DNA from: Salegentibacter agarivorans
GTDB taxonomy: Bacteria; Bacteroidota; Bacteroidia; Flavobacteriales; Flavobacteriaceae
Assembly (NCBI RefSeq): GCF_900113135.1
Contig: NZ_FOOH01000023.1
Coordinates: 1-64,000, forward strand
Length of the DNA stretch: 64,000 bases
Direction of reading: 5' to 3'
In this document: in pieces, positions 1,744 to 20,723 of the stretch
How positions within the stretch are numbered: position 1 is the stretch's first letter
Layout of the letters: each line of letters starts with the position of its first letter
Notes under the pieces: generated by a model
Databases searched by the model: none
What the model was told of the DNA's origin: nothing
What the model saw: only the letters and a program-made list of their open reading frames with translations
Position numbers and translations under genes: made by a program

Positions 1744-1760
1744 TAAACCATTTAAATCCA

Positions 1761-2806: not shown

Positions 2807-4846
2807 TTAATTCAGCATTTCTCCATTTTCATCAAATATCTTGAAACTTTTATAGGATTTAGAAAAGAAATTCTCTTCAGTTTCTGTGAGTAATTCTTCA
2901 AAATCATATCCTGGGATTTTAAAATCTTTCGGTATACTTAGCATAATTACATTACTATTTTCTAGTAGAATGTATCGAACATATTTTCTATTGGGATAAG
3001 AGATATAGAAGGATATTGCATTATTGTAATTTAATTTCTCAAGTTTTTTAGGCATTTCTTTTAGAACTCTATTCCTAAAATTCGAAAATGACCTATCTCC
3101 AGTAAATTTAAGATATAACTGATTCTCTGAATTTGTACTTAAGAGTTTATTTATAAAATCATGTTCTTTAATTCTATTGGTTAAAGAATCTTTTCTAAGT
3201 AGAAAGTTTTCTAGAGGAGTAATACTGTCCTCAATTGGCATTGTAAGATCATATATTATTTTGCTATTTTTCTCTTTATCTCGAATTTCCGCCATCCAAC
3301 AATCTCCGCCATAACTATAAGAATATATATTACCGATAGAGGTATCTAAAATTTCAAATTTTTCAAGTTCATTTATTTCTTCACGTAGAAGGTCTTTAAG
3401 TTCTTTATTTGGGTTCTTAAATCTTGATTGTAGAACTGGCGGCATATGCTCTTCTAGTTTTGTAATTCTTTGTTCTATTTCATTCTTTTTAATAGTATCT
3501 TTTATGAAATATTGATAATGTTTTAAAGTATTATAAAAATGTAATTTATTGAAAGCATCAACATGCTCATCCTGAATTAAATCTGAAATAGTTTGTTCAA
3601 AAAACGCCTGATTTTTTTCATCCAATGCGGAAAAAGCTTTACCTATTTTTGATCCATCCGAAAAGTAATGTTGCTGGTTCTCATTATCGATTCTCAAATT
3701 TGACCCCAGTAATAATTTTGGAATATTAAGATTTAGCTTACTCAATTCTTCTATATACGTTTTTCTCGCGTTAGAAGCAATATTACTATTAGCTACCCTT
3801 GAAACCTGATCGTTCATCACATTCAAAAATGATTTTATAAAGACACCCCAATTTGGTATTTGGGCTGCCAAACTAGCCATCCTTTTTTGTTGAATAATTG
3901 GACCATTATCAAAACTACACGAACCAACGTGCTGGTTGAAACGCATTAATTTCAATGCTTTTTTTTTAGAAATTAACTCCGCAGTGAAAAATTCCAATTC
4001 ACCGTTAGATTTTTCTTCGTTTTCGGCATATTCTAAAGATAAATTAAGTAATTCCTTAAATTTTGAATCTTCATTAAACAAGCTATCAGCAAAAAATGAT
4101 CTTTTTTTCTCCCAATCATTTAAGCTTTTTTGGAAAGAAATAAATTCCTGATTTTTAGAGCGCTTTGGTTTATGTGTTTTTACTGCATAATAATTAACTA
4201 AGGAATCGATAATATTTTCCTGCCGATTATATAGTGAGTTGTGGTTACTATCAATATTGAAAAATAAATTTTGATTGGGTAAAACAAGAAAGTCTGTATA
4301 TGAAACCCAGTCAGCATATTTTTCGGGTAAGATGACTTTTGAAAAATGCTTCTTAATCTTAAAACCTCTAATATTTGTTGAATTTAATTTCTTATTTGTG
4401 TAGGAAGTATAATAAAACTTAATATTTTCCCTAGACAATGAATCTGTATAATCAATTGTAATGCGATGCTCACTGTTATTTTTTATTTGAAAAGATTTAA
4501 TTTGTAGTTTTTGTTCGCCATTGGAATATTCTACCCTGTTTTTTAAAACCAGTAGATCTCGATCAATTTGAAGATTTGGGAAATTTTTCAACAAAGAGTC
4601 TAATTCTACTTCATTGGTCAAAGCAAGAATAAATTCTTCAGGTTTATTCGTTTTTATTTCAAAATAATCCCCGGTTCCTTGAGGCAGTGATTCTATATTG
4701 GATCTGGGACTGTTCTGATACTCGGTTTCCAACGAATCTATAATAATATCCAATACTGGAATGTCTTCTTCAGCTATAATTTCATTTTGAGAAAAACTCT
4801 CTTGACTTGAAATTAATAATAGAAGTAGTAAAAATAAATTCCTCAT
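2807..4846 (-). CDS. Exported protein of unknown function, 679 aa
   Basis: I do not recognise this family. The open frame extends upstream to 4933. The Met at 4846 is the better start because it opens a typical signal peptide (MRNLFLLLLLLISSQESFSQ) with a likely cleavage after FSQ. The mature protein is Lys-, Glu- and Asn-rich, mainly hydrophilic, and lacks further membrane segments. A central stretch (roughly residues 240-500) looks helical and a two-Cys region surrounds GSCSFDNG. The C-terminal 150 residues look alpha/beta. It lies downstream of higA on the same strand with a gap of about 118 bases. Periplasmic or secreted location is inferred from the signal peptide only. Confidence 0.7.
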   Translation of the reverse strand: MRNLFLLLLLLISSQESFSQNEIIAEEDIPVLDIIIDSLETEYQNSPRSNIESLPQGTGDYFEIKTNKPEEFILALTNEVELDSLLKNFPNLQIDRDLLVLKNRVEYSNGEQKLQIKSFQIKNNSEHRITIDYTDSLSRENIKFYYTSYTNKKLNSTNIRGFKIKKHFSKVILPEKYADWVSYTDFLVLPNQNLFFNIDSNHNSLYNRQENIIDSLVNYYAVKTHKPKRSKNQEFISFQKSLNDWEKKRSFFADSLFNEDSKFKELLNLSLEYAENEEKSNGELEFFTAELISKKKALKLMRFNQHVGSCSFDNGPIIQQKRMASLAAQIPNWGVFIKSFLNVMNDQVSRVANSNIASNARKTYIEELSKLNLNIPKLLLGSNLRIDNENQQHYFSDGSKIGKAFSALDEKNQAFFEQTISDLIQDEHVDAFNKLHFYNTLKHYQYFIKDTIKKNEIEQRITKLEEHMPPVLQSRFKNPNKELKDLLREEINELEKFEILDTSIGNIYSYSYGGDCWMAEIRDKEKNSKIIYDLTMPIEDSITPLENFLLRKDSLTNRIKEHDFINKLLSTNSENQLYLKFTGDRSFSNFRNRVLKEMPKKLEKLNYNNAISFYISYPNRKYVRYILLENSNVIMLSIPKDFKIPGYDFEELLTETEENFFSKSYKSFKIFDENGEMLN

Positions 4847-4964
4847 TCGTATGTTTTGTGTATTTATGGCATTGGTCAGGGTTGACAACAGTAGATATTC
4901 AGGTTTTGAATTATTTATCTTTTCAATTACCAATTGTTTATTAACCGATGGTACCCTTTGTTTT

Positions 4965-5470: not shown

Positions 5471-6508
5471 TTATTCTTTTTCCTTAACTATTTTCACAAT
5501 ACGATTGAACATTATTTCTGACATATTCCAATTATAACCATCAAAATTCACCGTGTTTGTAAATTGAATTACTACCACATCTATATCTTTATGATACTTG
5601 GCAATAGTTTGATAGCCTGGTATTAAACCAGTGTGCTCATATCCATAAATGGAAGAATATATCTCTTGTTCTTTTTCATTTCTAAATACGGAACCATCAT
5701 TTAAGGCTCGAATAAATTTGCTCAAATCTTCTGCCGTAGCCAACATGGAACCTACATTATCCGTTTTTAAATCCTTATCATATCCCACATAGTAACCGCT
5801 CATTACATCATCTATGTTTACCTCCTGGATAGAACTAAAAGTATTTTTTAGGTTCAAAGGATCTAAAATTTCTTTTTGAATGTATTCGAATTTATCATAT
5901 CCAAGCACCCGGTTCATAATTCTTCCTAGTAATAAGTAATTGGTATTGGAATATTCATAATCTTCATTGGGTTTAAAATTGGCAGGTTTATCCAAAACCA
6001 AAGCAAGTTGTTCGTCAGTGGTTTCCTTAGGAGCAACCCAATACATATAAGTGTCTGTAAAGTTTGGAATACCACTTCTATGCTGTACTAACATCCGTAA
6101 AGTAATTTTATCGGCATATTCTATTCTACCTTTCAATTCTGGTAAATAATCTGCGAGTGTTTTCTCCAATGATAATTTTCCATCATTAACCAGCTTTGCC
6201 ACAGCTAAGGCATTATACAACTTACTTACGCTAGCAATTTTAAATAATGAATTCGGGTCTGCGGGGGTTTTATTTTCTCTGTTTTTATAGCCCGAAGTAT
6301 AAAATTCTGATTGATTCCCTTTCTTGTTTACACATACAATTATCCCATCAAATCCGTAATCCTCTGCTTTATTTACCTGTTTTTGAATTGAATCCGGTAA
6401 TGGAACTATCCAGGCTTGTAATATAGGCCAGGGCACAAAGTACAGGAAAACGATTGTTGCAGCGAACAATATTACTCTAATTATCAAAGTCCTTGTTTTC
6501 ATTTTCAT
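5471..6508 (-). CDS. Serine hydrolase, beta-lactamase/DD-peptidase fold
   Basis: Member of the class C beta-lactamase-related family (PF00144), whose members hydrolyse D-amino-acid peptides, esters or beta-lactams. An N-terminal hydrophobic segment (residues 6-30) acts as signal anchor or signal peptide, placing the domain in the periplasm. The three active-site motifs are present: SVSK (93-96), YSN (186-188) and HTG (292-294). At 345 residues the length is normal. Two starts (codons 1 and 3) are possible. Its position next to the D-amino-acid locus could be coincidental, because it lies 745 bases downstream and beyond a repeat block. Confidence 0.85.
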   Translation of the reverse strand: MKMKTRTLIIRVILFAATIVFLYFVPWPILQAWIVPLPDSIQKQVNKAEDYGFDGIIVCVNKKGNQSEFYTSGYKNRENKTPADPNSLFKIASVSKLYNALAVAKLVNDGKLSLEKTLADYLPELKGRIEYADKITLRMLVQHRSGIPNFTDTYMYWVAPKETTDEQLALVLDKPANFKPNEDYEYSNTNYLLLGRIMNRVLGYDKFEYIQKEILDPLNLKNTFSSIQEVNIDDVMSGYYVGYDKDLKTDNVGSMLATAEDLSKFIRALNDGSVFRNEKEQEIYSSIYGYEHTGLIPGYQTIAKYHKDIDVVVIQFTNTVNFDGYNWNMSEIMFNRIVKIVKEKE

Positions 6509-6685: not shown

Positions 6686-7410
6686 AAAAATAGGGAATTC
6701 AAATAAAAAGAAATTTAGGTAAACTGTCGCGAGTAATTTAATACCCGTTCTGCCAATTACCCTCCATTTCGCAAAAGCTTCATTTCGTGAAAAGCGCTTC
6801 TCTACACAAGTCTTGGACCCCATCGAAGAAATTGCGACTTCCATTACGCTAACCCGATGAAAAATCGGAACGCTCCATTACAATTTTTCGATGAAGTACG
6901 CCAGATTGGAATTCAGATCATACTCTTTCTTTCTCAATAAAGTGGTGGTGTTTCCTGATCCATATGCAAACATTATCCTTACGCCCCTCCCCTTTTTAAG
7001 ATGTAAATAACAACATCCTTTCCCGGACAGCGGCATAAAGCCGCTGCGGCTTCGCCCACTCTTTTTATACGCTTTACCAGGCCAGGATGTTATAAAATAA
7101 ATGCATCAAAAAAGTTAATGTAACGGCGCTATAGGGAGTAAATCTACAAGTAAAATATAGTGTCAATCCCAAAACCTAAGAGTTAGATCGAGTTTGAGTT
7201 TAAAATAAAAAATAAAATGCTCTGGATATAATAAGTAAATTGACAATATGAAACTATCTGCCAATTTTGGTACCATTATCAATAAATTTTTCTATTAAAT
7301 TATACGTGAACGGAAGCTGGAATTCCAATCGTGAAAAAATATCCGCCGAAATGCTTCTTCTGCTAAAGGGTACGACTTTTACATACTCCTGAATTTCTCC
7401 TTCAGACCGG
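6686..7410. repeat. Diverged direct repeat, copy A
   Basis: This block of about 0.72 kb matches 18630-19325 in the same orientation over nearly its whole length, with many substitutions and small indels. Anchor identities are the segment ending CATCGAAGAAATTGCGACTT (about 6815), GTGGTGGTGTTTCCTGATCC (about 6942) and ATAACAACATCCTTTCC (about 7008). The block includes the last 52 or so codons of the racemase-like gene (7254-7410) plus about 570 bases downstream of it. A short open frame inside it (6626-6844, minus) is not conserved as protein in the other copy and is probably not a gene. Confidence 0.85.
7012..7091. other. Imperfect palindrome inside repeat copy A
   Basis: Arms AACATCCT (7012-7019) and AGGATGTT (7084-7091) enclose a G+C-rich core with a hairpin AGCGGC-ATAAA-GCCGCT (7029-7045). 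The corresponding element in copy B (18932-19011) has exactly the same 80-base span, but its pairing is degraded. It could be a transcript-end structure for the upstream operon or part of an old mobile element. No family was recognised. Confidence 0.4.
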
Positions 7411-8732
7411 CCGTATTTATACTCATAAGGAAAATCTCCTTTTTCATTAGTTATAATATTTGGATTATCCTGGTTGGGGACACTAATGTAAAATTCACTG
7501 TTGTTTATATTACCGTTTTCATTGAAAAGCTTTTCCTCCTTCAAATGCTGAAATAATTCTAGGGCAGTATTTACTGCAGGATCAATAAGATCGATATCTT
7601 TAGTCATAAACCGACGGTAACGGAGACTCCCATCATCTTCACGGTAGTTATATAATTCGTTTAGTACACGATCGATTTCCCTTGTTAAATAAGGATAATG
7701 AGTACAGCCCAGAATAATAGATTTTAAAGGTTGTTGAACATTTGCCTTTCTAATCTTTTCCATTAAAGAAACAAGGTGATAGCGCACATAATTTTCAGCA
7801 TCGTTAATTTGCAGAATATTACAATCATCGCTGGCCTGGGTATCACAAAGCATCTTGAAATCGTCATAGTCAAAATTATAAATATCCATAAGAGCCTTAT
7901 CTATTTTTAAATTCCCCTTAAGATCGGGCCCTTTATAGCTTTCACGTGGCTCGGTTAGTTCTTTATCGAAATAATCGGAATCTTCATCTACTGCCTCTGC
8001 GATTCCAACTCCTCCTTGCTGAAAGACTTCAATATTTCCGGTGTAGCCCAGTTTGTCTTTTTGTTCGTAAAGGGTGTTTACATAGCCCTTGGAGGAAACT
8101 GTTCCAGCCGTGGCCATTACAGCTATGGTAGCGTCTTCATCGTGCTCCAGTTTTTCCAGAGATCCTCTTACCCCGGCATCAATAACTCCAATTACTTTTA
8201 TATCTAACTCCGCCAATTTCATAAAAGCTTCAATATTCTCTTTTCCATAGGCCGTAGCCGTATTGCAGGCAATAACTAGCGCCTTAATAGGAGATTTGTC
8301 GGTGCTGAATGTTTGGGATTCCGGTGAGGTATAATATTTGTTTCCAAGGATGAACTGTACATCTTTAAGAATATGCTCTAGTAATAGCGCATCTTTATTT
8401 TCTGCAGAATAATTTCCATAAGGCATATTGGCCTGATCGGCCAGGTAAATGAATTCTTCTTTTTTAAAGTCGATTTCACCATCGGCACCTGCAGCAAGAG
8501 ATTCATTGTTGAAGCCATCAAAATTAACAATGGCATCAAGCACCGTTAACCCACCAATTCCGGAATCAAATACGCCTATTGGAAGGCTTTTTTCCCCTTC
8601 AGGATAATCCTTGGTATTGATGTAATAAAAGCTATCCTTATCATTTAAGATGCTCTTTGTGATGGCTTCTTGGGCCCAAAGGAGGCTGGGCAGGAATAGA
8701 AATATTATGAATAATGATTTGTATGATCTCAT
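7254..8732 (-). CDS. Exported glutamate-racemase-like protein (MurI superfamily)
   Basis: Asp/Glu racemase family protein with a clear signal peptide (residues 1-20, ending LLWA-QEA), so it is predicted to act in the periplasm. MurI signature motifs are intact: IGVFDSGIGGLTV (52-64), YLADQANMPYGNYS (97-109), ACNTA with catalytic Cys156, ATAGTVSSKGY (208-217) and LGCTHYPYL with catalytic Cys343. Both cysteines of the two-base mechanism are present. At 492 residues it is nearly twice the length of cytosolic MurI (about 260-280). The extra length is spread over insertions and a C-terminal extension. It ends the SusC-SusD operon and starts 4 bases after the deacylase gene. Conversion of D-Glu or D-Asp to the L form is inferred; it may be too divergent to act on glutamate. 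Confidence 0.85.
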   Translation of the reverse strand: MRSYKSLFIIFLFLPSLLWAQEAITKSILNDKDSFYYINTKDYPEGEKSLPIGVFDSGIGGLTVLDAIVNFDGFNNESLAAGADGEIDFKKEEFIYLADQANMPYGNYSAENKDALLLEHILKDVQFILGNKYYTSPESQTFSTDKSPIKALVIACNTATAYGKENIEAFMKLAELDIKVIGVIDAGVRGSLEKLEHDEDATIAVMATAGTVSSKGYVNTLYEQKDKLGYTGNIEVFQQGGVGIAEAVDEDSDYFDKELTEPRESYKGPDLKGNLKIDKALMDIYNFDYDDFKMLCDTQASDDCNILQINDAENYVRYHLVSLMEKIRKANVQQPLKSIILGCTHYPYLTREIDRVLNELYNYREDDGSLRYRRFMTKDIDLIDPAVNTALELFQHLKEEKLFNENGNINNSEFYISVPNQDNPNIITNEKGDFPYEYKYGRSEGEIQEYVKVVPFSRRSISADIFSRLEFQLPFTYNLIEKFIDNGTKIGR

Positions 8733-8736
8733 GATT

Positions 8737-10320
8737 CTAAGGTTTTGTGGTTTGTGGGGTGATAAGTTTTCCGGCAGCAGCTCCTGTGAGTTTATTATCT
8801 TCCAGGCTTATCTGTCCGTTTATGATGACGGTTTCAATTCCCTGGGGATATTGATGAGGTTCTTCAAAAGTGGCCATATCTTTAATTTTTTTAGGATCAA
8901 AGATTACCAGATCAGCTATACAGCCTTCCATTATTCTGCCCCGGTCATTGAGTCCAAGGAGATCAGCCGGCATCGAAGTCATTTTTTTTATAGCTTCGGA
9001 AAGACCTAGCACTTTTTTCTCTCTTGCATATACACCGAGAACCCTGGGAAAGGTCCCGTAAGAACGGGGATGTGGATGATTTACGCCCGGTTCGGATAAT
9101 TTCCCGTCTGAAGCTATCATGGTTGTAGAGTGTTTCATGATCCGGTTTACATCATCTTCGTGCATAACATGATAGATCATTTGCGCTCCACCGTTTTTTT
9201 GGGCCTCAATGATTAGGTTTACAGCATTGGCGGGAGTAGGCTCGAGCTTTTCCATTTCCAGCCAATCTACCATGGTTTTTCCCTGCAATTCCGGTTTCCA
9301 GCCGAACTTTCTGAATTGTAGACGTTCTAATTCGTCTCCAACCCTCACGTGGATTATATTATAAAGAATTCCTTTCTCTATACTGTCTCTTAATTTCTTA
9401 TCCTGAAGTCGTTCCTTAAATTTTTCACTTCCCCCTGCGCGTGCCCAGGAAGGGATTAAAGCCGATATTCCTGTAGAACTGGCTGTATATGGATATTGAT
9501 CTAATCTCACATCTAAACCGGCTGCATTGGCAGAATCCACCATTTTCAGCGTTTTTTCACTTGCGCCCCACATCCCGGCCCCCAGGGCTTTATGGTGACT
9601 GAGTACTACCGTGATATTGGCCTTTTCAGCTATTTCAATAGTTTCTGAGACAGCTTCGATCAAGCCCAGGCTTTCATCGCGAATATGGGAGGAATAAAAA
9701 CCTCCATGTTTTGCTGCAACTTTGGCCAGGGCAATTACCTCTTCGGTTTCAGAATATGTCCCTGGCACATAGGTTAGCCCGGTACTTAGACCAAAGGCGC
9801 CGTGATTCATGGCTTGAGCTACCAGTTCCTGCATTAGCAATAATTCTTCTTCGCTTGGGTTACGGTTCTCTGTGCCCAAAACCCTCTCGCGAACCGAATT
9901 ATGACCTACCTGGTAACCCACATTAACCCCTAACTTCAGCTCGCTTACTTTGTCAAGATAGCCGGGGAAATCATCGGGGCCGCCTCCGTCTGCCCCGCCA
10001 ATGAGAAGACTTACTCCCTGGCGCATGGCACTTTCTGCAGTAGGTAGCTCTCTAATGTTTTCTATATGAGCATGGGTATCAATAAAACCTGGAGCCACAG
10101 CCTTATATTTTGCCTCAATATTTTTACTCGCTGTTTTATCTTTGAGGTCTCCCAACTTTACAATTTCATCCTGGTTTATTGCGATATCCTGTACCCTTGG
10201 TTCATCTCCTAATCCATTATAAATAGTGGCATTCCTTATAATAAGGTCATAATCCTGCGCATTAATATACTGTCCAAGGAGGAGCAGGAAGCTGAGTGGA
10301 ATCATTAATTTGAATTTCAT
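8737..10320 (-). CDS. Exported N-acyl-D-amino-acid deacylase (D-aminoacylase)
   Basis: Amidohydrolase-superfamily enzyme that removes the N-acyl group from N-acyl-D-amino acids. Residues 1-21 form a signal peptide (ending YINA-QDY). Metal-site and family motifs: APGFIDTHAH (His83, His85), FGLSTGLTYVPG (177-187), SHIRDE (211-216), SHHK (241-244), ASDG (403-406) and a later HPRSYGTFPR. The family segment near residue 105, usually containing a metal-ligand Cys in a GNCG-like motif, here reads IGGADGGGP and lacks Cys. The 527-residue length is usual. It sits between the serine hydrolase and racemase genes with very short gaps (18 and 4 bases), so the three are probably one transcript. Confidence 0.9.
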   Translation of the reverse strand: MKFKLMIPLSFLLLLGQYINAQDYDLIIRNATIYNGLGDEPRVQDIAINQDEIVKLGDLKDKTASKNIEAKYKAVAPGFIDTHAHIENIRELPTAESAMRQGVSLLIGGADGGGPDDFPGYLDKVSELKLGVNVGYQVGHNSVRERVLGTENRNPSEEELLLMQELVAQAMNHGAFGLSTGLTYVPGTYSETEEVIALAKVAAKHGGFYSSHIRDESLGLIEAVSETIEIAEKANITVVLSHHKALGAGMWGASEKTLKMVDSANAAGLDVRLDQYPYTASSTGISALIPSWARAGGSEKFKERLQDKKLRDSIEKGILYNIIHVRVGDELERLQFRKFGWKPELQGKTMVDWLEMEKLEPTPANAVNLIIEAQKNGGAQMIYHVMHEDDVNRIMKHSTTMIASDGKLSEPGVNHPHPRSYGTFPRVLGVYAREKKVLGLSEAIKKMTSMPADLLGLNDRGRIMEGCIADLVIFDPKKIKDMATFEEPHQYPQGIETVIINGQISLEDNKLTGAAAGKLITPQTTKP

Positions 10321-10338
10321 ATTGCTCAGTTCTATATG

Positions 10339-11694
10339 TTAGTTTGAGTTTGTAATAAAAGAACTTAGGTCCTTTGCCAGATTTGCCTTTCGGGGCTCAT
10401 CTATTTCCAGGTATTCCTTTTCCAGATCTGCTAAAGCCTCAAGAGAGATCTCGGCTTCGTCTGCAATACTTTCATACCAGGAATACAGGTTTTCTTTATT
10501 TAAATTACAGATTTCTTTTTGTAAAAGATGTTCTATTTTCTGTTTAGGCACCTCCAGAGTTTGACCCTTTAAATAACCTTCAACCTGCTTCCGGATATCT
10601 TTTAGGTAAGCGGTATTATACCTGTTATTTAATACAACGATCAAACTCTTATCATCGATATATCTTTTAATAGAAGTGAGGTTTCCTGCCCAACTCCCGG
10701 TGTGATAAACTACCTTCCCCAGACTATCATCATTATAAATATGCCATCCAAATCCGTAATCGGAGCTGTCTTTTTCTGGCTTATAAACCTGGAAGATTTT
10801 CTGCTTACTTTTTTCGCTGAATATTGCATTGGTATTTAATATACTATCCCATTTAACAAGATCATTTATACTTGAAGATAATCTGCCCGGGCCTAATCTG
10901 CCGCTTAAAAAGGTATAGTAATATTTCCCCGGAAGATTCTCCGGCTTGGTATATGCACAGGTTTTAAGGTCCAGCATATACGCGGGAGCATAATTTTTCA
11001 TTTTCCAGATCGTGTCTCGTTCATAAAAGGCACTCGATCTCATATCTGCAGGTTGAAAGATGTTTTTATGTAGAAATTCATCTAGTTGTTCTCCACTAAC
11101 TCTCGCAATTATTTCTGCCAATACAACATATCCCGAATTGGAATAGCTATATTTCTCCCCTGGAACGCTTTCCAGATCTGGCTTTTCAGTTTTAAAATAG
11201 GAAATTATGTCTTTATTGTATGCAACCTTAGTAGTGTCCCAATTTTTTCTAAAATGGCTGGCATAATTTACCAGGCCTGAAGTATGAGTTAAAAGATGTT
11301 TTATGGTAATTTCAGAGTAGGGAAAATCATCTAAATAAGTCTGAACATTATCTTCAATATTTAATTTACTCTGTTGTTCTAATAAAACTATAGCTGCTGC
11401 TGTAAATTGTTTGGAAACGGAGGCTACCTCCATAGGAGTATTAGCTTTAAAATCCTTATCAAACTGGAAATTTGCTTTACCGTATCCTTTTTTCAACAGA
11501 ATTTTGCCATTCTTCTTTACAGCCACAGCACCACTAAACATTTCTTTTTCCTCAAGTTCCCGAAAAAATCCATCCAACGTCTTGTCAGTAGTAATTTCAT
11601 TTGAATTCTGTGAAACGGACTCTGGTTTGGTTCCACACGAGAGATTCCCTAACAAGCCTAAAAGAAGGATGAAAGATAATAGGTTTCTAGTCAT
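10339..11694 (-). CDS. Serine hydrolase lipoprotein, DD-peptidase/beta-lactamase family
   Basis: PF00144-type serine hydrolase with a lipobox (GNLSC, Cys20), so it is predicted to be anchored to a membrane as a lipoprotein. Active-site motifs are SVSK (92-95), YSN (184-186) and HTG (331-333). A helical C-terminal tail of about 90 residues follows the catalytic domain. Family members include D-aminopeptidases, DD-carboxypeptidases and esterases. It lies between susD and the D-aminoacylase gene in the same orientation, which supports a role in trimming peptides or esters that contain D-residues. Its exact substrate cannot be read from the sequence. Confidence 0.88.
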   Translation of the reverse strand: MTRNLLSFILLLGLLGNLSCGTKPESVSQNSNEITTDKTLDGFFRELEEKEMFSGAVAVKKNGKILLKKGYGKANFQFDKDFKANTPMEVASVSKQFTAAAIVLLEQQSKLNIEDNVQTYLDDFPYSEITIKHLLTHTSGLVNYASHFRKNWDTTKVAYNKDIISYFKTEKPDLESVPGEKYSYSNSGYVVLAEIIARVSGEQLDEFLHKNIFQPADMRSSAFYERDTIWKMKNYAPAYMLDLKTCAYTKPENLPGKYYYTFLSGRLGPGRLSSSINDLVKWDSILNTNAIFSEKSKQKIFQVYKPEKDSSDYGFGWHIYNDDSLGKVVYHTGSWAGNLTSIKRYIDDKSLIVVLNNRYNTAYLKDIRKQVEGYLKGQTLEVPKQKIEHLLQKEICNLNKENLYSWYESIADEAEISLEALADLEKEYLEIDEPRKANLAKDLSSFITNSN

Positions 11695-11794
11695 TATTGA
11701 AATCCTTGATTAATAATTAAAAATCTAAATGCGGAAAAACATGATGCCCTCCCGCGATTTAGATTAAAATACCTATTGAATTATGGCTAATTCA

Positions 11795-13210
11795 TTAGAA
11801 ACCGGGATTTTGTGGCCCTATCTGTGGATTGGCATTTAATTCGCTTAATGGAATTGGTAATATGAATTTCTCATTGGGATATGAAGCTTCAATTACCTGT
11901 CCTTCCCCCTGATCTATACTCACTCCTTTTTTATTCCTGTTTAAATCAAATAGTCTATGACCTTCAAAGGCCAGTTCCTTTCTTCTTTCTAATAGGATTC
12001 TATCAACTAATTCATTCCCGACTTCTGAGACCTCCTCAGCACCAGGATTTGCTCTGTTTATCACTTCCTGTAAATCTTGTTGAGCAAGCTCGTTTTGTCC
12101 GGTCTTCGCATAAGCTTCAGCTCTTATTAAATACTGCTCTGCTAGTCTTAAAATTTTAATATTATCATCATGCAAAGTCCCATTAGGGAACTTATTCACG
12201 AAATAAGCTTCCTCTTCTGCTCCCGGTTTAGAACCTTCTAAAATGGCAAGCAAGCGAACATCACTTTCATCATAAGTAGCAACAAGATCCTCTGTTACCA
12301 AGGCATCTGCATATCCAGTCACGTCAAAAAAGTGTCCCAAACCATTGGTCCCAGCATTATCTGCTATAGTATTGATAACTTCCATAAGGGTTTCTTCATT
12401 GAAATCCACCGACCATAGATCCATATACCTTTCATTTGGAATAAGTGAAAAAACACTACTTTCAATAACATTTGTACTATAAGTTATGGCCTGCTCGTTT
12501 TCTTCTTCATATAAGGCCACTCTTGCCGCTAAGGCGTATGCCGCATTCACGGAAAACCTGCCGTCCTGATTGGCTTCTGTCATTAATGAAACCGCTGTAC
12601 TGAGATCTGAGTTTATATGTTGATAAACTTCATTTACCGAATTTCTAGATGGGGAAACTTCATTTTCATTAATTTCGGTGATTAGGGGTATACCAGGGTG
12701 GCTAGCATCTGCAGTAAAATTATAAGGTTGTGCAAATAAACGTACGAGGTCAAAATGAGCCAAACTTCTTAAAGCGTAAGCTTCTCCAAGTAATTGTTTT
12801 ATTTGAGCTTCCTGACCGGGAAATTGCTCCAGTAAATTTTCGCCTCCCTCAATTACCCGTGTAGCATTTACCGCCACTTCATATATTGAATTCCAGGCAC
12901 TTTCTACATAAGAATCCTCTTCACTTACAACGAAATTATTGAAATCAAGATATCTCCCCGTATTTCTCAAACTTAGGTAAAGATTATCAGCCATAAGTTC
13001 AGGCATAACATATACATTCCTTCCATAATACCCATTGCTTTGTAAATTACTATATACCCCATTTACCGCAGTTTGAAGCGTATTAATGTCTATTACTGCA
13101 TTTTCTGCAGCTACATTTTGTTCCGGATCTATTTCAAGGAAATCCTCGCTACAAGAGATAGATAAAAAAGTCCAGAAACTAACTAATATAAATTTTATAA
13201 TTTTTTTCAT
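11795..13210 (-). CDS. SusD/RagB-family nutrient-binding lipoprotein
   Basis: Outer-membrane surface lipoprotein that caps its SusC partner and captures the substrate. The signal sequence ends in a lipobox (LSISC, Cys20). The body carries TPR-like helices and the SusD pattern, with the conserved RRKELAFEGHRLFDLNR segment in the C-terminal third. The 471-residue length is normal. It starts 11 bases after the susC stop, giving the standard pair. Substrate class is not readable from SusD itself; the downstream D-amino-acid enzymes suggest peptide or amino-acid derivatives rather than glycan. Confidence 0.95.
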   Translation of the reverse strand: MKKIIKFILVSFWTFLSISCSEDFLEIDPEQNVAAENAVIDINTLQTAVNGVYSNLQSNGYYGRNVYVMPELMADNLYLSLRNTGRYLDFNNFVVSEEDSYVESAWNSIYEVAVNATRVIEGGENLLEQFPGQEAQIKQLLGEAYALRSLAHFDLVRLFAQPYNFTADASHPGIPLITEINENEVSPSRNSVNEVYQHINSDLSTAVSLMTEANQDGRFSVNAAYALAARVALYEEENEQAITYSTNVIESSVFSLIPNERYMDLWSVDFNEETLMEVINTIADNAGTNGLGHFFDVTGYADALVTEDLVATYDESDVRLLAILEGSKPGAEEEAYFVNKFPNGTLHDDNIKILRLAEQYLIRAEAYAKTGQNELAQQDLQEVINRANPGAEEVSEVGNELVDRILLERRKELAFEGHRLFDLNRNKKGVSIDQGEGQVIEASYPNEKFILPIPLSELNANPQIGPQNPGF

Positions 13211-13221
13211 TGTGCTTATTT

Positions 13222-16200
13222 TTAAAATGAAAGATCTAATCCAACTAAAAGCTGTCTTGAAATAGGAATTCTGAGATCAGATTGACCTGTAATTCCAACT
13301 TCTGGATCCATTTCTATTTTATCGTCTTTCACCCAGGTCAAAAGATTATTCCCTTTCAGATATAACCGCAGATTATTTACTCTTATACGTTCTATAAAAT
13401 TTTCAGGCAGATTATAAGATAGGGTGACATCCCGTAATCTTAAATAAGTACCATCATACAGAAATCTTGTGGAGTGTTGGCTTGAAAGTCCTGATTGAGA
13501 ATTACCCCAAACCACTTTAGGTACATCAGTGATATCACCAGGGTTTTGCCATCTGTTCTCATAGATATTTTGTGTCATATTGCCTCTGTCATTAAGCCTT
13601 GCACTCCCGTCACTGTTTGTATACCTACCCCAATAATCATAAACTTTATTTCCATAGTTTAGGTAAAGCATGAAAGAAAAGCTTAAGTTCTTATAAGTTA
13701 ACGTGTTCGTTAATCCAGAATAAAAATCAGGCAATGCGCTACCTTGTTTATAAGGTTCCGCTTCGCTATACTGATTGGTAGTATTAGTTTCACTGCCATC
13801 GGTATACCATAAAGCATCCCCATTTTCAGGATCTGCTCCTGCAAAGCCCGGCATAAAGAAAGTATAAAAGTCTTCTCCTACTTCTCTTTTGTAATATCCA
13901 TCAACTATTGCTTCGTCATCCTGCAATTTTGTGATTTCATTTTCGTTAGAAGTAAAATTGAAATTACTAGTCCACGTAAACCCATCAGGATTATCAATAT
14001 TTACAGTATTAAGTGCAAACTCCCAACCCGAGTTTTTCATTTCACCAATGTTTGCTAAAAAATTTGTTATCCCGTTTGTAGCAGATATAGGAACTCGAAA
14101 TAAAAGATCTGTGGTTGTCCTATTATAATATTCAATAGTTCCTGTTATACGATGATTAAAATTAAAGTCCACTCCCACATTGAAGGGTTTATTCTTTTCC
14201 CAGGTTAAACCAGGATTTGATTGTTGACTATATACATATCCTGGTTGACCATTATAATCGGCTCCTGTGGAATATAAACCCCTCGAGGCAAAATCCCCAA
14301 TTTCCTGGTTACCATTGACTCCATAACTGGAGCGCAATTTTAATTCTTTTACAACTTCTGCATTCTCCAAGAAATCTTCGGCAGCAATATTCCAGGCCCC
14401 TCCCACAGACCAAAAATTAGCATACCTAACATCAGAACCAAAACGCGAAGAACCATCTCTACGGCCGGTAGCATTCAAATAATATTTATTTCCAAATGCA
14501 TAACTGGCATTAATAAAATAAGAGGAAATCGAAGATGCTGTTCTACTATTTGTAGCATTGAGAAAAACAGACGCATTGTCTAAAGTTGTCAAGCCAGGTG
14601 CTCCATAATTACTAACGTAGGCATAAACAGAACTTCTTTCAATTTTCTGAGCCTCTTGTCCTAAAGTAAAATCCAGATTATTATCATCGTTAATTCTCCA
14701 GTTGTACTTTAATAGGTTAGTGATATTATAATTAATTATTTTATTGTTATAGGCTCGCCCCCTACCACCGTCATTTCTACCCTCTCCAAAAACAGGATTA
14801 TCAAAACGAAATTCATCCGCTAAATTGAAATCAACATTTCCTTTTGTTTGAAAACTAAAGTTTTCTGTAAAATCATAAGTTAAACTAAGATTACCCAGGA
14901 TTCCATAAATTTTGGTTTCACGGATATTTTCTTCTACGAGTCCCACTGGATTATAAGTAAGGAGAATATCAGTATTATACCTTCCATCCTCATTATAGAC
15001 CGGTTCCCAAGGCACCACCCTAGCCAATGCCCTTACTGGATTATGAGCACTTCCAGCATCGCTATTGGTATTTAATTTCTGATTATTTGCAGCAACCCCA
15101 AAATCAATTTTAAGCTTATCGGTTGCCTGATGATTTACATTTAATCTAGCATTCAGTTTATTATAGCCAATTCCTATAATCACTCCTTCCTGCTCATAAA
15201 GGCCTAAGGATGCGAAAAATTGTGTTTTTTCTGAACCGCCATTCGCGCTAATATTATACTGCTCATAATTTCCGGTTCGGGTAATTACATCTACCCAGTC
15301 TGTATCAATTGTTCGATCAACATTACTATATATATAATCTTCTGCCTCTTGTGGCGTATCACCAGCATTTACCCTACTTTCAATGAGTAATTCAAGATGC
15401 TGATCGGTATTGAGCGGTTTATTACGATCCGGTAGGAGCATTTGACTAACTCCGCGCTGAGCACTAACATCAAAGGTTGTTTTTCCTTCCTTTCCCTGCT
15501 TTGTAGTAATAAGAATAACCCCGTTTGCACCTCTTGATCCATAGATGGAGGTGGCAGACGCATCTTTTAAGACCGTTATGTTTTCAATATCTTTGGGGTT
15601 AATTCCAGCAATAGTATTGGAACTGGTAGCAATTTGAGAGATATTACCTGAAATCACAGGAATCCCATCTATAACATATAAGGGATCAGAACTTGCGTTA
15701 ATAGAGCCAATTCCCCTAATCCTAATATTTGGAGCCGCACCTGGTTGACCGCTCTCGGTTGACATTTGCAAACCGGCTACATTACCTTGAAGGCTTTCTT
15801 GAAATGAAGCCAATGGAGATTCGTCAATTTTACTAACATCTACATCAACTGCAGCTCCTGTAAATGATGCCCGACTTTGCTTTCCATATGCAACTACTAA
15901 TACCTCACTTAACTGATCAGCATCTTGCAACATTACTACTTCTATCGGGGAGTCCAGATCAGTGATTCGGTAGGTGAGTGATTCCATTCCCACATAACTA
16001 AATTCCAACACATCCCCTTCCTCGGCTTCGATGCTAAAAACGCCATCAAAATCAGTTTGCGTTCCTGTATTGGTATTTTGAATTATTACATTTACGCCCG
16101 GCAAAGGAAGCCCATTGTCATCCAGAACCTTTCCTTCCACTACCTGCTGAAAATCATCAGGATCTAAAATACTCTGCGAGGTTAATGACCGATCTGAGGG

Positions 16201-16608
16201 ATGGTCTGTTATATATTCTGAAGCCTCTGAAAAATCATCTTTATATAGGACGATATTATTATTAATTATCCTAAAATTAATATTCGTTGATTTTAAAATT
16301 TGGGACATTACTTCCTGAACATTCTCACTGGAAAAACTGATATTAATTTTCACTTTCTCATTTACTAACTTATTGTTATAGAAAAAATTATAATCGGTTT
16401 GTTCTTCAAGATCATACAGGATAGCTCTCAATTCTGTATCCTGATAATTTAATTCAATGTTTTGACCGTATACCGTTAAGCTAGAAGCTGATATTTTTAC
16501 AATCGTGAGACATAATATTAAGGAATAGATCTTCATAATTCTGATTAACTTTTTAGAAAAATCATCGGTGTCACGAATAGGCAGAGGGCCATTCAACTTT
16601 TTTTTCAT
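13222..16608 (-). CDS. SusC-family TonB-dependent transporter with STN signalling domain
   Basis: Outer-membrane, energy-coupled importer of 1128 residues. Order of parts: long signal region (about 1-49), secretin/TonB short N-terminal (STN) domain (about 50-120), carboxypeptidase-regulatory-like domain (about 155-235, GKVLDDNGLPLPGVNV), TonB plug (about 240-360), then a beta-barrel ending in LLVGLDLSF. The STN domain is the contact for a FecR-type anti-sigma factor, encoded just upstream together with the sigma factor. Import by this protein is therefore probably what induces the operon. The gene opens about 90 bases after fecR, beyond a stem-loop. Confidence 0.95.
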   Translation of the reverse strand: MKKKLNGPLPIRDTDDFSKKLIRIMKIYSLILCLTIVKISASSLTVYGQNIELNYQDTELRAILYDLEEQTDYNFFYNNKLVNEKVKINISFSSENVQEVMSQILKSTNINFRIINNNIVLYKDDFSEASEYITDHPSDRSLTSQSILDPDDFQQVVEGKVLDDNGLPLPGVNVIIQNTNTGTQTDFDGVFSIEAEEGDVLEFSYVGMESLTYRITDLDSPIEVVMLQDADQLSEVLVVAYGKQSRASFTGAAVDVDVSKIDESPLASFQESLQGNVAGLQMSTESGQPGAAPNIRIRGIGSINASSDPLYVIDGIPVISGNISQIATSSNTIAGINPKDIENITVLKDASATSIYGSRGANGVILITTKQGKEGKTTFDVSAQRGVSQMLLPDRNKPLNTDQHLELLIESRVNAGDTPQEAEDYIYSNVDRTIDTDWVDVITRTGNYEQYNISANGGSEKTQFFASLGLYEQEGVIIGIGYNKLNARLNVNHQATDKLKIDFGVAANNQKLNTNSDAGSAHNPVRALARVVPWEPVYNEDGRYNTDILLTYNPVGLVEENIRETKIYGILGNLSLTYDFTENFSFQTKGNVDFNLADEFRFDNPVFGEGRNDGGRGRAYNNKIINYNITNLLKYNWRINDDNNLDFTLGQEAQKIERSSVYAYVSNYGAPGLTTLDNASVFLNATNSRTASSISSYFINASYAFGNKYYLNATGRRDGSSRFGSDVRYANFWSVGGAWNIAAEDFLENAEVVKELKLRSSYGVNGNQEIGDFASRGLYSTGADYNGQPGYVYSQQSNPGLTWEKNKPFNVGVDFNFNHRITGTIEYYNRTTTDLLFRVPISATNGITNFLANIGEMKNSGWEFALNTVNIDNPDGFTWTSNFNFTSNENEITKLQDDEAIVDGYYKREVGEDFYTFFMPGFAGADPENGDALWYTDGSETNTTNQYSEAEPYKQGSALPDFYSGLTNTLTYKNLSFSFMLYLNYGNKVYDYWGRYTNSDGSARLNDRGNMTQNIYENRWQNPGDITDVPKVVWGNSQSGLSSQHSTRFLYDGTYLRLRDVTLSYNLPENFIERIRVNNLRLYLKGNNLLTWVKDDKIEMDPEVGITGQSDLRIPISRQLLVGLDLSF

Positions 16609-16664
16609 AGTTTTGAAGGTTTAGTTATTATTCTGGTTCATTCAAAAAGAAACAATGCTAAACA

Positions 16665-16694
16665 GTAAGGGGAGTGTTGCCGCACTTCCCTTAC
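16665..16694. terminator. Stem-loop between fecR and susC
   Basis: Arms GTAAGGGGAGTG (16665-16676) and CACTTCCCTTAC (16683-16694) form a 12-bp stem with one mismatch at most and a 6-base loop, 5 bases after the fecR stop. The T-rich tract lies on the plus-strand side, so it is not a textbook terminator for minus-strand transcription. It may act as a partial terminator or as a processing/stability element that sets different levels of regulator and transporter mRNA. Confidence 0.5.
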
Positions 16695-16698
16695 CTTT

Positions 16699-17667
16699 TT
16701 AATTGTTTTCACTTAATATAAATATCTTTTGTTTTTTATCTAACTGGTATTTTATAGGAGAAGAAGCCTCAATTAACTCAAGGACTTCCTCTATATTTGT
16801 TTTACGCTTTACTTTACCCGAAAATGTATAAGTGTTAATCACACTATCTTTAATTTCAATTTTCACATCGTACCAGCGTTCCAGACTAGTAAGTACATTT
16901 TGTATAGGCTCATTATCAAATATGAGAATCCCTTCCTTCCAAGATATGATTTCAGCAGTGGAAACTTGCTCTATATTTATTTTATCCTCTGCCTTATTAA
17001 AGATGGCTTTCTGATCTGGAGAAAGAGCTATACCAGGCAGGTTTTTAGTGTTTTGAAGTAGTTCTACTTTTCCACTTACTAAGGTAGTTTCAATAGTTTG
17101 ATCCGATTTATACGACTTAATATTAAAGCTGGTTCCTAATACTTTAACCTGTAAATTGCTCTCAGTATTTACAATAAAAGGTCTGGCCGTGTCCCGTTCA
17201 ATTTCAAAAAAGGCTTCCCCTTCCAGATAAACGTTACGATCTGAGTCGTTAAAGTCTGAGGCTATTTCTATAATGCTACCTGAATTTAATAAAACCTTAC
17301 TTCCATCGGGCAGAATGTATTCCTCCATAATACTGGGTTTAGCTTCATACACAGCCAGGGGTCTAGATGATAATTCTCTGTCCGTTAAATACCAACCACC
17401 ACCGGCTAAAAGAGCGATAAAGATTACCGATGCAATCTTAAGGATTAAGCTCCGATTGATTCCTTGCTTTTTTCTTAAAAGGAATCGATCAAATTCTTTA
17501 TCTATATCCACGTTTTGATCAATCTGAAACTTACTTACATACTCAGCTTTTACTCTATTATAATACCTACGGTTCTCAGGTGAGGCCTTCACCCAATCTA
17601 TTACTGATTCCTGAAAACTTCTGTCTCCTGAACCTTTTATAAATTGTATTAAATCTTCTTTTCTCAT
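16699..17667 (-). CDS. FecR-family anti-sigma factor
   Basis: Inner-membrane transmembrane sensor of 322 residues. A cytoplasmic N-terminal segment is followed by one membrane helix (about 74-96) and a periplasmic FecR domain (about 105-205, including LPDGSKVLLNSGS and VLGTSFNIKSY). The C-terminal DUF4974-type domain (about 250-320) is an STN-like fold that receives the signal from the SusC N-terminus. It lies 82 bases after the sigma gene and 90 bases before susC, the usual order of trans-envelope regulators in Bacteroidota. Confidence 0.93.
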   Translation of the reverse strand: MRKEDLIQFIKGSGDRSFQESVIDWVKASPENRRYYNRVKAEYVSKFQIDQNVDIDKEFDRFLLRKKQGINRSLILKIASVIFIALLAGGGWYLTDRELSSRPLAVYEAKPSIMEEYILPDGSKVLLNSGSIIEIASDFNDSDRNVYLEGEAFFEIERDTARPFIVNTESNLQVKVLGTSFNIKSYKSDQTIETTLVSGKVELLQNTKNLPGIALSPDQKAIFNKAEDKINIEQVSTAEIISWKEGILIFDNEPIQNVLTSLERWYDVKIEIKDSVINTYTFSGKVKRKTNIEEVLELIEASSPIKYQLDKKQKIFILSENN

Positions 17668-17749
17668 AATTCTTATATAGATATGACGATACAGAACAAG
17701 GTTACCCCTATTCAGTTTTTGTTTTTTTAGTATTTTTTTTGATAGATTA

Positions 17750-18325
17750 TTAGAAAAGCCCCATATACTCTTGCAGTTCTCTTCGAAATAAGCGCAAAGC
17801 TTTAGCGATTTGATGTTCTACAGTTTTGATGGAAATATTCATTTCGCTGGAAATCTCCTTATATTTTAAGCCTTCAAAACGACTTTTAATAAAGATCTGC
17901 TTACAACGAGGAGGAAGTTCATTCAGAATTTGATTCACTTTTTCTTCTAATTCTGATTCGATGAGAAGAAGATCTGGGTGATCCTGTAAGGATGTTTGAT
18001 TAAGGGAAGCTCTTTCTCTTTGAATTACATCATGGTAATTGGCTTTTACCTTCTGATGCTTAAAATAATCCAAACATTCATTTTTTGTCATTCTGAATAA
18101 GTAAGCATTCAGATTGGAATCTATATTTAGTGAGGCCCTTTTTTTCCAGAATTTGAAAAATACATTTTGGGTAATCTCTTTTGCTTCATCCTCATCTTCC
18201 AGGTAACTTTTAGCAAAATAGAACAGCCTGTCGAAATAGAGACGGAACAAAGTCTCATAGGCAGTATTCTCGCCCTTTTTAAGACGATTGATAAAAAAAG
18301 AGTTATTTACTATACCGTGAGCCAA
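17750..18325 (-). CDS. ECF sigma factor, FecI-like
   Basis: RNA polymerase sigma-70 family factor of 191 residues. Region 2 spans about 20-90 (LFYFAKSYLEDEDEAKEITQ and FKFWKKR) and region 4 about 130-180 (LPPRCKQIFIKSRFEGLKYKEIS). It is the first gene of the minus-strand cluster sigma-fecR-susC-susD-serine hydrolase-deacylase-racemase. It is expected to drive the downstream transport operon when released by the neighbouring FecR protein. Confidence 0.94.
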   Translation of the reverse strand: MAHGIVNNSFFINRLKKGENTAYETLFRLYFDRLFYFAKSYLEDEDEAKEITQNVFFKFWKKRASLNIDSNLNAYLFRMTKNECLDYFKHQKVKANYHDVIQRERASLNQTSLQDHPDLLLIESELEEKVNQILNELPPRCKQIFIKSRFEGLKYKEISSEMNISIKTVEHQIAKALRLFRRELQEYMGLF

Positions 18326-18629: not shown

Positions 18630-19325
18630 AGAGGGAATTGAACTATCTTAATCCAACCTCTGTTTTTTTTACACCCCTGTAAATTGGCAAAGGCTCCATT
18701 CCGGGAAAAGCGCTTCTCTATAAAGTTCTTGGACACCATCGAAGAAATTGCGACTTCCATTACACTAAACAGATAAAAAATCGGATCGCTCCATTACAGA
18801 TCAAAATTTTTCGATGAAATAAGCCAGATTGGAATTCAGATCATAGTTTTTTTCCCAACAAAGTGGTGGTGTTTCCTGATCCATATTCGAAATCATCCTT
18901 TCGCCCCTTTCCTTTTTAAGATTCAAATAACAACATCCTTTCCTGGACAGCAACATAAAGCTGATTCGGCTTTGCCTACTTTTTAAATAGGTATTATCAA
19001 GCTAGGATATTAAAATAAATGCATCGAAAAAGGTTATGTGACGGCGCTTGAAGAGGTAAATGAAAGAATCAAAAAACAATTATATTTCTCTAGGTTCTCT
19101 TTATTTTACTTCTTTTTTCTACTTAAAAAGCAAATGTTTTAGATCAAAAAAATTGGTATAAATTTATCTACTAATCCTAGTACCATTACTATGAATTTTT
19201 CTCTTAAATTATAAGTGAACGGAAGTTCGAATTCAAATCGGGAAAAATATCCGCTGAGATGTTTCTTCTGCTAAAGGATACTACTTTTATATACTCCAGA
19301 ATTTCTTCTTAAGACCGGCCGGATT
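18630..19325. repeat. Diverged direct repeat, copy B
   Basis: Same-orientation counterpart of 6686-7410. The block begins near AGGGAATT and includes TTCTTGGACACCATCGAAG (about 18726), GTGGTGGTGTTTCCTGATCC (about 18862) and ATAACAACATCCTTTCC (18927-18943). It ends with a dead copy of the racemase 3' end. An 80-codon open frame on the minus strand (18518-18760) is not conserved in copy A and is not called. Confidence 0.85.
19165..19325 (-). pseudogene. 3'-end relic of a second racemase-like gene
   Basis: Minus-strand translation gives EEILEYIKVVSFSRRNISAD. This matches EGEIQEYVKVVPFSRRSISAD near the C-terminus of the intact gene at 7254-8732. The relic has an in-frame TAA where the intact gene has a GAA codon (CGG-TCT-TAA). 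It also has a one-base deletion shortly after SADIF that shifts the remaining C-terminal codons. Only about 50 codons survive, and the rest of a presumed second gene copy is missing. Confidence 0.8.
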
Positions 19326-19640
19326 CAAACTTAATTTACATATATTAATATTGGAAAGAGTTTCGTGGATTTAAAAATTCAAGGTATCTTATAAGTATGC
19401 TTAATTTCGAACTAATTTTGGATAAATTGACCTCAATTTTATAAAAAACAAAAATTATTGGCTTAGGCGGTAAAAATCATAATAACAGTGATTAACGGCT
19501 GTAACACCTTGCTTCAAAAATTGAAATGCATTAGCATAACATTCTAGAAGCTCTCATCCAACCTTTTATTTGAAATCAAAAAAATATTCTACCAAGATAA
19601 TTTAAGCAGCACTACCTATAATTAATCCAAAATCTAAAAC
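19326..19640. other. Intergenic, nothing recognised
   Basis: AT-rich stretch between the dead racemase end and the YegP-like gene. The similarity to copy A stops near 19325. I see no gene, repeat or clear terminator in it. Confidence 0.45.
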
Positions 19641-20535: not shown

Positions 20536-20573
20536 AAGTAGTTAAAGGCTACTTTTTTATTCTACCCTGAATT

Positions 20574-20723
20574 TTAGTCTAAAGTTTTATCACTACCTCC
20601 ATTAACAAATAAGACCTGACCGCTGGTCCAGTTTGAAATAGGAGCTGTAAAATACAACACCGCTCCCGCAAAGTCTTCTGGTTCACCCAATCTCTTAATT
20701 TTGGTTTCAGGTCTTAGAAAGTC
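20574..20723 (-). pseudogene. Short-chain dehydrogenase relic, C-terminal end
   Basis: Minus-strand translation ending in TAA at 20574-20576 reads RLGEPEDFAGAVLYFTAP then WTSGQVLFVNGGSDKTLD, the classical C-terminus of SDR-family oxidoreductases. The reading frame meets a stop at 20724-20726 and no N-terminal Rossmann segment (TGxxxGxG) precedes it. Only about 50 codons of an expected 240-260 remain. Confidence 0.8.

Follow-up and report, generated by a model that had tools for sequence, protein, structure and literature searches.

D-amino acids are described as an important part of the recalcitrant organic matter of the deep sea (PMC12363236), and marine bacteria possess, in the DgcN-DgcA pathway, a way of turning D-glutamate (D-Glu) into usable L-Glu (PMC12363236, PMC10845958). 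The D-Glu routes described in PMC10845958 act after uptake. Racemisation outside the cytoplasm is known from the periplasmic racemases BsrV/BsrF and RacK, as described in PMC12502697. In this paper we analyse a window of 64,000 nucleotides from Salegentibacter agarivorans (RefSeq assembly GCF_900113135.1, contig NZ_FOOH01000023.1, positions 1 to 64,000), in which seven minus-strand genes at 7254-18325 bring together a SusC/SusD transporter pair, its own sigma/anti-sigma genes and exported enzymes of D-amino-acid type. We consider it reasonably likely that this locus scavenges small molecules bearing D-Glu, in that it imports them, releases D-Glu, racemises it outside the cytoplasm and takes up L-Glu. 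Numbers beginning with L, G and C denote examined loci, genomes, and contigs of the window's genome, respectively.

Coordinates of the open reading frames (ORFs) and family scans confirm the seven gene families and the order that the original prediction, made from the DNA letters of the window, had proposed. In transcription order the locus begins with an extracytoplasmic function (ECF) sigma factor of the Bacteroidetes type (17750..18325, TTG start; TIGR02985, 174.6 bits with a cut-off of 126.4) and a FecR-type anti-sigma factor (16699..17667; PF04773 and FecR_C, PF16344). These are followed by a SusC TonB-dependent transporter with an STN signalling domain (13222..16608; PF07660, and TIGR04056 at 808.8 bits with a cut-off of 368.25), which forms a SusC/SusD pair with the adjacent SusD surface lipoprotein (11795..13210; PF07980, PF14322). 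The last three genes encode an S12-family serine hydrolase lipoprotein (10339..11694; PF00144), an exported D-aminoacylase-family amidohydrolase (8737..10320; PF07969) and an exported protein that resembles glutamate racemase and has inserts (7254..8732). In the same order the intergenic gaps are 82, 90, 11, 100, 18 and 4 bases long. By eye, the aminoacylase and the racemase each show a signal peptide, and SusD and the serine hydrolase each a lipobox. As had been predicted, the family scan gives no glycoside hydrolase in any of the seven genes, so that the glycan-degrading enzyme which defines a polysaccharide utilisation locus is missing; nor do the seven genes include the YkfC-type endopeptidase or muramyl amidase of a murein-peptide locus. 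The sigma factor, FecR and the transporter with its N-terminal signalling domain together make up the parts of FecI-FecR type signalling, and the locus is probably inducible.

The AlphaFold model of the racemase-like protein (mean pLDDT 90.1, pTM 0.89) has the fold of the Asp/Glu racemases, more precisely that of a glutamate racemase. A Foldseek search with this model returned 46 PDB chains at E <= 0.001, with glutamate racemases at ranks 1-44 and aspartate racemases at ranks 45-46. The original prediction had left open racemisation to either L-Glu or L-Asp; glutamate is favoured as the more likely substrate by sequence and predicted fold. The match to PF01177 lies just below the cut-off (29.9 against 31 bits). 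We aligned 48 sequences, the window protein and 47 from a scan of named genomes, and checked 14 active-site positions, which in this family are catalytic cysteines or substrate-site residues. Twelve of them are invariant in 48/48 (D56, S57, P104, Y105, G106, C156, N157, T158, T208, C343, T344 and H345), including both catalytic cysteines, C156 and C343, while T211 is kept in 47/48 and E246 in 39/48. Other cysteine columns are the lipobox position (40/48) and the pair C296/C304 (41/48). This pair sits in an insert missing from the MurI of the same genome and might form a structural disulphide suiting an exported protein. An exported racemase with two catalytic cysteines raises the question how these are kept reduced outside the cytoplasm. 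The genome encodes an ordinary MurI at C14:60219-60956 (194.3 bits, above the TIGR00067 cut-off), of 265 residues compared with 492 for the window protein, which rules out the exported protein being the only MurI of the cell; a further racemase-family gene is found on C52.

The best solved structures for the aminoacylase in a PDB sequence search are those of D-aminoacylase, 1m7j and 1rjp. Seven residues are invariant in 31 aligned aminoacylases (H83, H85, H212, H242, K244, D405 and R419), and they contain the HxH pair, the two further His and the Asp which we take to be the metal site of the D-aminoacylase family (H83, H85, H212, H242, D405). The window enzyme is close only to that of Salegentibacter L030 (79% identity), is 32-40% identical to the other 29, and stands on a very long, far branch of the aminoacylase tree. 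The serine hydrolase carries the motifs SVSK (92), YSN (184) and HTG (331). Its relatives in PDB include alkaline D-peptidase, DD-carboxypeptidases and D-aminopeptidase, the best being 2qmi, a beta-lactamase entry related to penicillin-binding proteins. All three motif types were seen in 13/31 assigned hydrolase ORFs with a crude pattern that misses variants and that we use for the window protein only. In Pseudoflavitalea rhizosphaerae (L074, 9998-12943, plus strand) a racemase followed by an S12 hydrolase is encoded in one ORF of 981 residues.

Racemase matches at E <= 1e-10 are found in 11/299 genomes of the same family, the window's own included (ten near full-length copies and one broken piece), and in neither of the two same-genus genomes searched. 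The scan of named genomes found at least 571 stretches with a racemase relative, a number that may include ordinary MurI, for which reason we do not take it for the size of the family; the 80 best were taken. Together with the window and four further loci they give 85 loci, of which 83 are counted, as L027 and L108 contain no full-length racemase ORF. The 82 rows of the racemase tree comprise 70 Bacteroidota, 4 Ignavibacteriota, 1 Planctomycetota, 1 labelled Pseudomonadota and 6 without a group, with the caveat that some rows are metagenome bins and may be wrongly labelled. The broken piece belongs to genome G006 (L017/L027), where residues 390-485 remain with two stops, surrounded by sigma, FecR, SusC, M14-like, aminoacylase and symporter-like genes.

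The aminoacylase is the direct same-strand neighbour of the racemase in 44/83 loci and lies in the same gene run in 47/83. SusCD-type partners are also frequent (SusC 37, SusD 36, FecR 20, sigma 14), as are peptidases and hydrolases (M14 25, S12 20, gamma-glutamyltransferase (GGT) 19, penicillin acylase 5), and we further find the SDF symporter in 16 loci, an FN3 lipoprotein in 15, a DAPDH-like protein in 9 and the N-formylglutamate amidohydrolase family in 7. The non-Sus partners were named from Pfam/NCBIfam scans of one or few members per cluster, the rest being assigned with hidden Markov models built from the clusters. As a control for distance inside the same loci, we compared genes 1-2, 3-4, 5-6 and 7-12 positions away from the racemase (n=316, 288, 248 and 193). 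The counts fall off for the aminoacylase (46, 5, 1, 1), the SDF symporter (14, 2, 1, 0), GGT (14, 4, 1, 0) and M14 (21, 12, 7, 0).

Conservation of the gene order outside the strain, which the original prediction had named as a check, is only partly borne out. The strict order susC-susD-hydrolase-aminoacylase-racemase is limited, among the 85 loci, to the window, L030 and two Flavobacterium loci with an extra epimerase-like gene, and in the Echinicola loci the racemase precedes the aminoacylase. The transporter and hydrolase are shared more widely: with L030, SusC is 86%, SusD 81% (over 218 residues) and the hydrolase 70% identical, and with two Flavobacterium and two Echinicola loci the values are 60-65%, 60-63% and 45-50%. 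The next SusC among those listed is 26-31% identical to that of the window. These loci outside the strain and the gene families support the prediction of a D-residue-type locus with its own sigma, FecR and STN-bearing SusC.

A search started from SusD (E <= 1e-80) gave matches in 15/397 family genomes and 7/395 class genomes, with the window's own in both; the two genomes of the same genus that were searched gave none. We took the surroundings of 16 of the 21 non-self matches, including all five at 60% identity or more; the five left out were at 39% or less. In the five closest loci (L133-L137) SusD is 62-65%, SusC 67-72%, the S12 hydrolase 53-56%, the sigma factor 58-67% and FecR 43-45% identical to the window proteins. 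All five have the gene order sigma, FecR, SusC, SusD, enolase-superfamily gene, S12 hydrolase, thus keeping the sigma-FecR-SusC order of the window, and in none do the 20 kb taken around SusD include an aminoacylase gene or a racemase gene. The three of the five enolase-superfamily proteins that were scanned match L-Ala-D/L-Glu epimerase and DgcA models below the cut-offs, and the homologue in Flavobacterium L043 has its best match in 3iji (327 bits; labelled muconate cycloisomerase), which we take to be a dipeptide epimerase from Bacteroides whose structure was determined with dipeptides containing D-Glu. We did not accept DgcA as the identity of this gene: the DgcA model NF042940 is the best match in the three proteins at 185-207 bits, but the epimerase of the window's own genome, which lies beside a YkfC-like NlpC/P60 protein, scores 219 bits on this model. 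PF07755 (DUF1611), the family to which DgcN presumably belongs, has no match in the window's genome, so that no dgcN gene is found there. A membrane gene adjoins the hydrolase in three of these loci (DUF819 by scan in L135; by eye in L136 and L137). The S12 hydrolase ORF of L133 (11197-13794, plus strand) has 865 residues, about twice the usual length, and is possibly a fusion. The same genome, G094, holds on another contig a locus with an exported racemase and aminoacylase (L026).

Counting both searches, eleven loci carry the window-type transporter. Five of them have the epimerase-like gene only, two (L043 and L052) have both kinds of enzyme, and four (the window, L030, L064 and L068) have the aminoacylase and racemase only. 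All 11/11 thus carry an enzyme expected to invert a D-Glu-type centre, and the finding of a cassette with an L-Ala-D/L-Glu-epimerase-like gene in place of the other two strengthens the D-residue theme of the original prediction. The six racemases of the transporter-sharing loci do not form one clade: forcing them together lowers the log-likelihood by 264.82, with an approximately unbiased (AU) test p value of 1.59e-49, which is not blind since the group, although defined by the shared SusCD cassette, was chosen after the tree had been seen. On this test we reject the idea of the module as a single block passed on by descent. Because the racemases are polyphyletic and the window aminoacylase stands on its far branch, the aminoacylase/racemase combination appears to have come about, or been swapped, on more than one occasion next to a single transporter cassette. 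The other eleven SusD-found loci (36-43% identity) have mixed content. An M19-type dipeptidase (by Pfam in L140, by eye in the others) and large amidohydrolases are found in L138-L142, an aminoacylase relative (32%) in L148, and no such enzyme was seen beside SusD in L143-L147. Near its SusCD pair with M19-type dipeptidase, L142 also encodes (1118-1921, minus strand) a protein that reads by eye as a lipoprotein and matches the Asp/Glu racemase domain PF01177 at 122.6 bits; it may represent another type of exported racemase.

How might the locus work? SusC and SusD would transport N-acyl-D-Glu or L-Xaa-(gamma)-D-Glu peptides through the outer membrane, fragments of murein stem peptides being the preferred candidates among the latter. 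The S12 hydrolase, a lipoprotein, would trim these molecules, the exported aminoacylase would cleave the amide to give free D-Glu, and the exported racemase would convert this to L-Glu before the inner membrane, where an ordinary L-Glu carrier could take it up. Substrate-occupied SusC may signal through its STN domain to FecR and the sigma factor, which would switch the locus on. In the epimerase version of the cassette D-Glu would be inverted while still part of the dipeptide, and this would probably happen in the cytoplasm. We infer the activities, the exact substrate, the order, direction and place of the reactions and the sigma control. D-Glu auxotrophs of Vibrio fischeri and Escherichia coli acquired gltS mutations for the use of external D-Glu, as described in PMC12502697, and by analogy with these carrier mutations, racemising before import would make sense. 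SDF-family symporters are among the racemase neighbours in 16/83 loci, and the window's genome has one, on another contig. A wider hypothesis, which we hold tentatively and at somewhat less than even confidence, is that exported cofactor-independent glutamate racemases paired with exported D-aminoacylases constitute a racemise-before-import route for D-Glu in Bacteroidota that several lineages assembled separately around one SusCD cassette, either replacing a dipeptide epimerase or adding to it. If so, D-Glu from cell-wall debris would be inverted outside the inner membrane, normal L-Glu carriers would suffice and D-Glu need not enter the cytoplasm.

Several observations weigh against this interpretation. 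The racemase-like protein is below the curated TIGR00067 cut-off (97.7 against 146.65 bits), for which reason we do not file it as a member of that family, and it is 18-24% identical to solved glutamate racemases in Foldseek. In all 31 aligned aminoacylases an Asp (D111 in the window) replaces the GNCG Cys of 1m7j, presumably a metal-site residue. OngB, a cousin of the aminoacylase, is reported as specific for the oxidised amino sugar GlcNAc1A and as hardly active, if at all, on N-acetyl-D-Glu (PMC9537276). There are no symporter, GGT or M14 genes within the window locus. A single SDF protein was scanned, and it resembles GltP but scores far below the cut-off of that model (254 against 638 bits). 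GltS itself belongs to another transporter family, so that its case is an analogy only for SDF symporters. No aminoacylase lies in the gene run in 36/83 loci, and most loci from Sphingobacterium, as well as those from other phyla, have the racemase without aminoacylase, SusCD, peptidase or symporter partners. The N-formylglutamate amidohydrolase family shows no peak beside the racemase (2/316, 8/288, 6/248 and 2/193 with increasing distance). Neighbourhood counts are not independent events, because the 83 loci are conditional on the racemase and include many close kin, and six of the eleven transporter-sharing loci are conditional on the racemase as well, the other five having been found via SusD. 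No signal peptide is visible by eye on the epimerase-like proteins, so that this version of the cassette probably acts in the cytoplasm. Finally, a separate locus at C16:38000-56000 (L151) contains GHL10, an SSF symporter, an epimerase, an NlpC/P60 protein with SH3 domains and Amidase_2 genes, adjoins SusC and SusD (by eye) and looks, from these families, like a locus for murein-peptide use. As the genome has this second locus with its epimerase and YkfC-like endopeptidase, murein is not necessarily what the seven-gene locus is for; the predicted peptidoglycan-peptide source is plausible and the one we favour, though weakened by the locus on C16.

The history of the block is also of interest. 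An IS21-type element at 190-2504 on the plus strand, with a transposase carrying a Mu-type C-terminal domain and IstB, is 94% identical in DNA to a copy in the congener G257, and this congener has other genes before the proline dehydrogenase. With the element nearby and the differing genes in G257, the seven-gene block looks acquired. Upstream of the sigma gene, the 3' end of the racemase gene recurs as a decayed second copy (19165..19371, minus strand), detected by a DNA match at 19165-19331 (169 columns, 84% identity) and a translated match at 19190-19371 with an interrupted frame. At about 20570-20710 on the minus strand, six-frame translation shows a short broken piece that by eye resembles the C-terminus of an SDR dehydrogenase. 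On the other side, a second S12 serine hydrolase (5471-6508, minus strand) follows downstream of the racemase after a gap of 745 bases, and its membership of the locus is not clear. A protein of 708 residues at 2807-4933 on the minus strand has no Pfam match at E <= 1e-5 and adjoins a small HTH_3 protein.

The same chemistry could draw on another source, namely poly-gamma-glutamate or other gamma-glutamyl compounds and not murein peptides. The GGT (19/83), M14 carboxypeptidases (25/83) and SDF symporters (16/83) among the racemase neighbours would suit this source, as would a murein-like locus already present elsewhere in the genome. We nevertheless think it unlikely for the window, which has neither GGT nor M14 genes, and the same transporter is found elsewhere with an L-Ala-D/L-Glu-epimerase-like enzyme, which suits dipeptides and not a homopolymer. 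Since racemases are reversible, the exported enzyme might also make D-Glu outside the inner membrane for wall editing or signalling, in which case the locus would not be nutritional; periplasmic racemases such as BsrF and RacK are thought to supply D-residues to peptidoglycan (PMC12502697), and a good part of the loci have the racemase but no uptake genes. The recurrent neighbours (aminoacylase, SusCD, peptidases and symporter) make such a reversal doubtful, as does the epimerase-like enzyme that takes the racemase's place in related cassettes, and we give this alternative little credence.

It is also conceivable that the substrate of the aminoacylase is an N-acylated sugar acid, as it is for OngB, a member of the same structural family reported to be specific for GlcNAc1A (PMC9537276). 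The locus would then be devoted to an oxidised amino sugar or some other compound derived from glycans, in line with the usual role of SusCD systems. With no glycoside hydrolase in the seven genes, no evident role for a glutamate racemase and Glu-directed enzyme families in related loci, we regard this as very improbable. Equally remote in our opinion is the idea that the horizontally acquired block is not, or no longer, in use. The IS21 genes at 190-2504, the racemase and SDR remnants between 18.3 and 20.9 kb, the absence of both racemase and SusD matches from the two searched genomes of the genus and the differing genes before the proline dehydrogenase in G257 would all agree with a species-specific insert, but all seven genes are open, their active sites are conserved and orthologues exist in several genera. 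Scavenging of D-Glu with racemisation before import is the interpretation that we prefer, and the original prediction can be said to be right in kind, with its interpretation as a whole partly supported.

Single parts of this system are known, but the export-side layout looks new. A weak search, confined to the listed titles and abstracts of open-licence literature, found no description of an exported glutamate racemase or of such a locus. If true, the route would name genes for D-Glu use in Bacteroidota, provide metagenome surveys with a marker and add D-residue peptides to the substrates that SusCD systems handle. DgcN-DgcA acts after uptake, via N-acetyl-D-Glu, whereas the racemase of the window would act directly and is exported. 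Murein recycling, with MpaA or YkfC and the L-Ala-D/L-Glu epimerases YcjG/YkfB, finds its likeness in the epimerase-like gene of the relatives' SusCD cassette; it epimerises the dipeptide, while the window version seems to free D-Glu and then racemise it. The cytoplasmic MurI/RacE enzymes share fold and catalytic residues with the window racemase, which differs from them in being exported and longer, with inserts, the extra pair C296/C304 and a score below the curated cut-off. The window aminoacylase has in common with D-aminoacylase and N-acyl-D-glutamate deacylase (1m7j, 3gip) and with OngB (9kb1) the family, the metal-site His/Asp and basic residues, but it is exported and has Asp for the GNCG Cys. 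BsrV/BsrF and RacK, which we take to be pyridoxal phosphate enzymes of another fold, are tied to cell-wall D-residues and not to SusCD. With other SusCD loci under ECF sigma/FecR control the window locus shares the transporter, lipoprotein, STN domain, sigma factor and FecR, and it departs from the usual ones in that its enzymes belong to amino-acid and peptide families.

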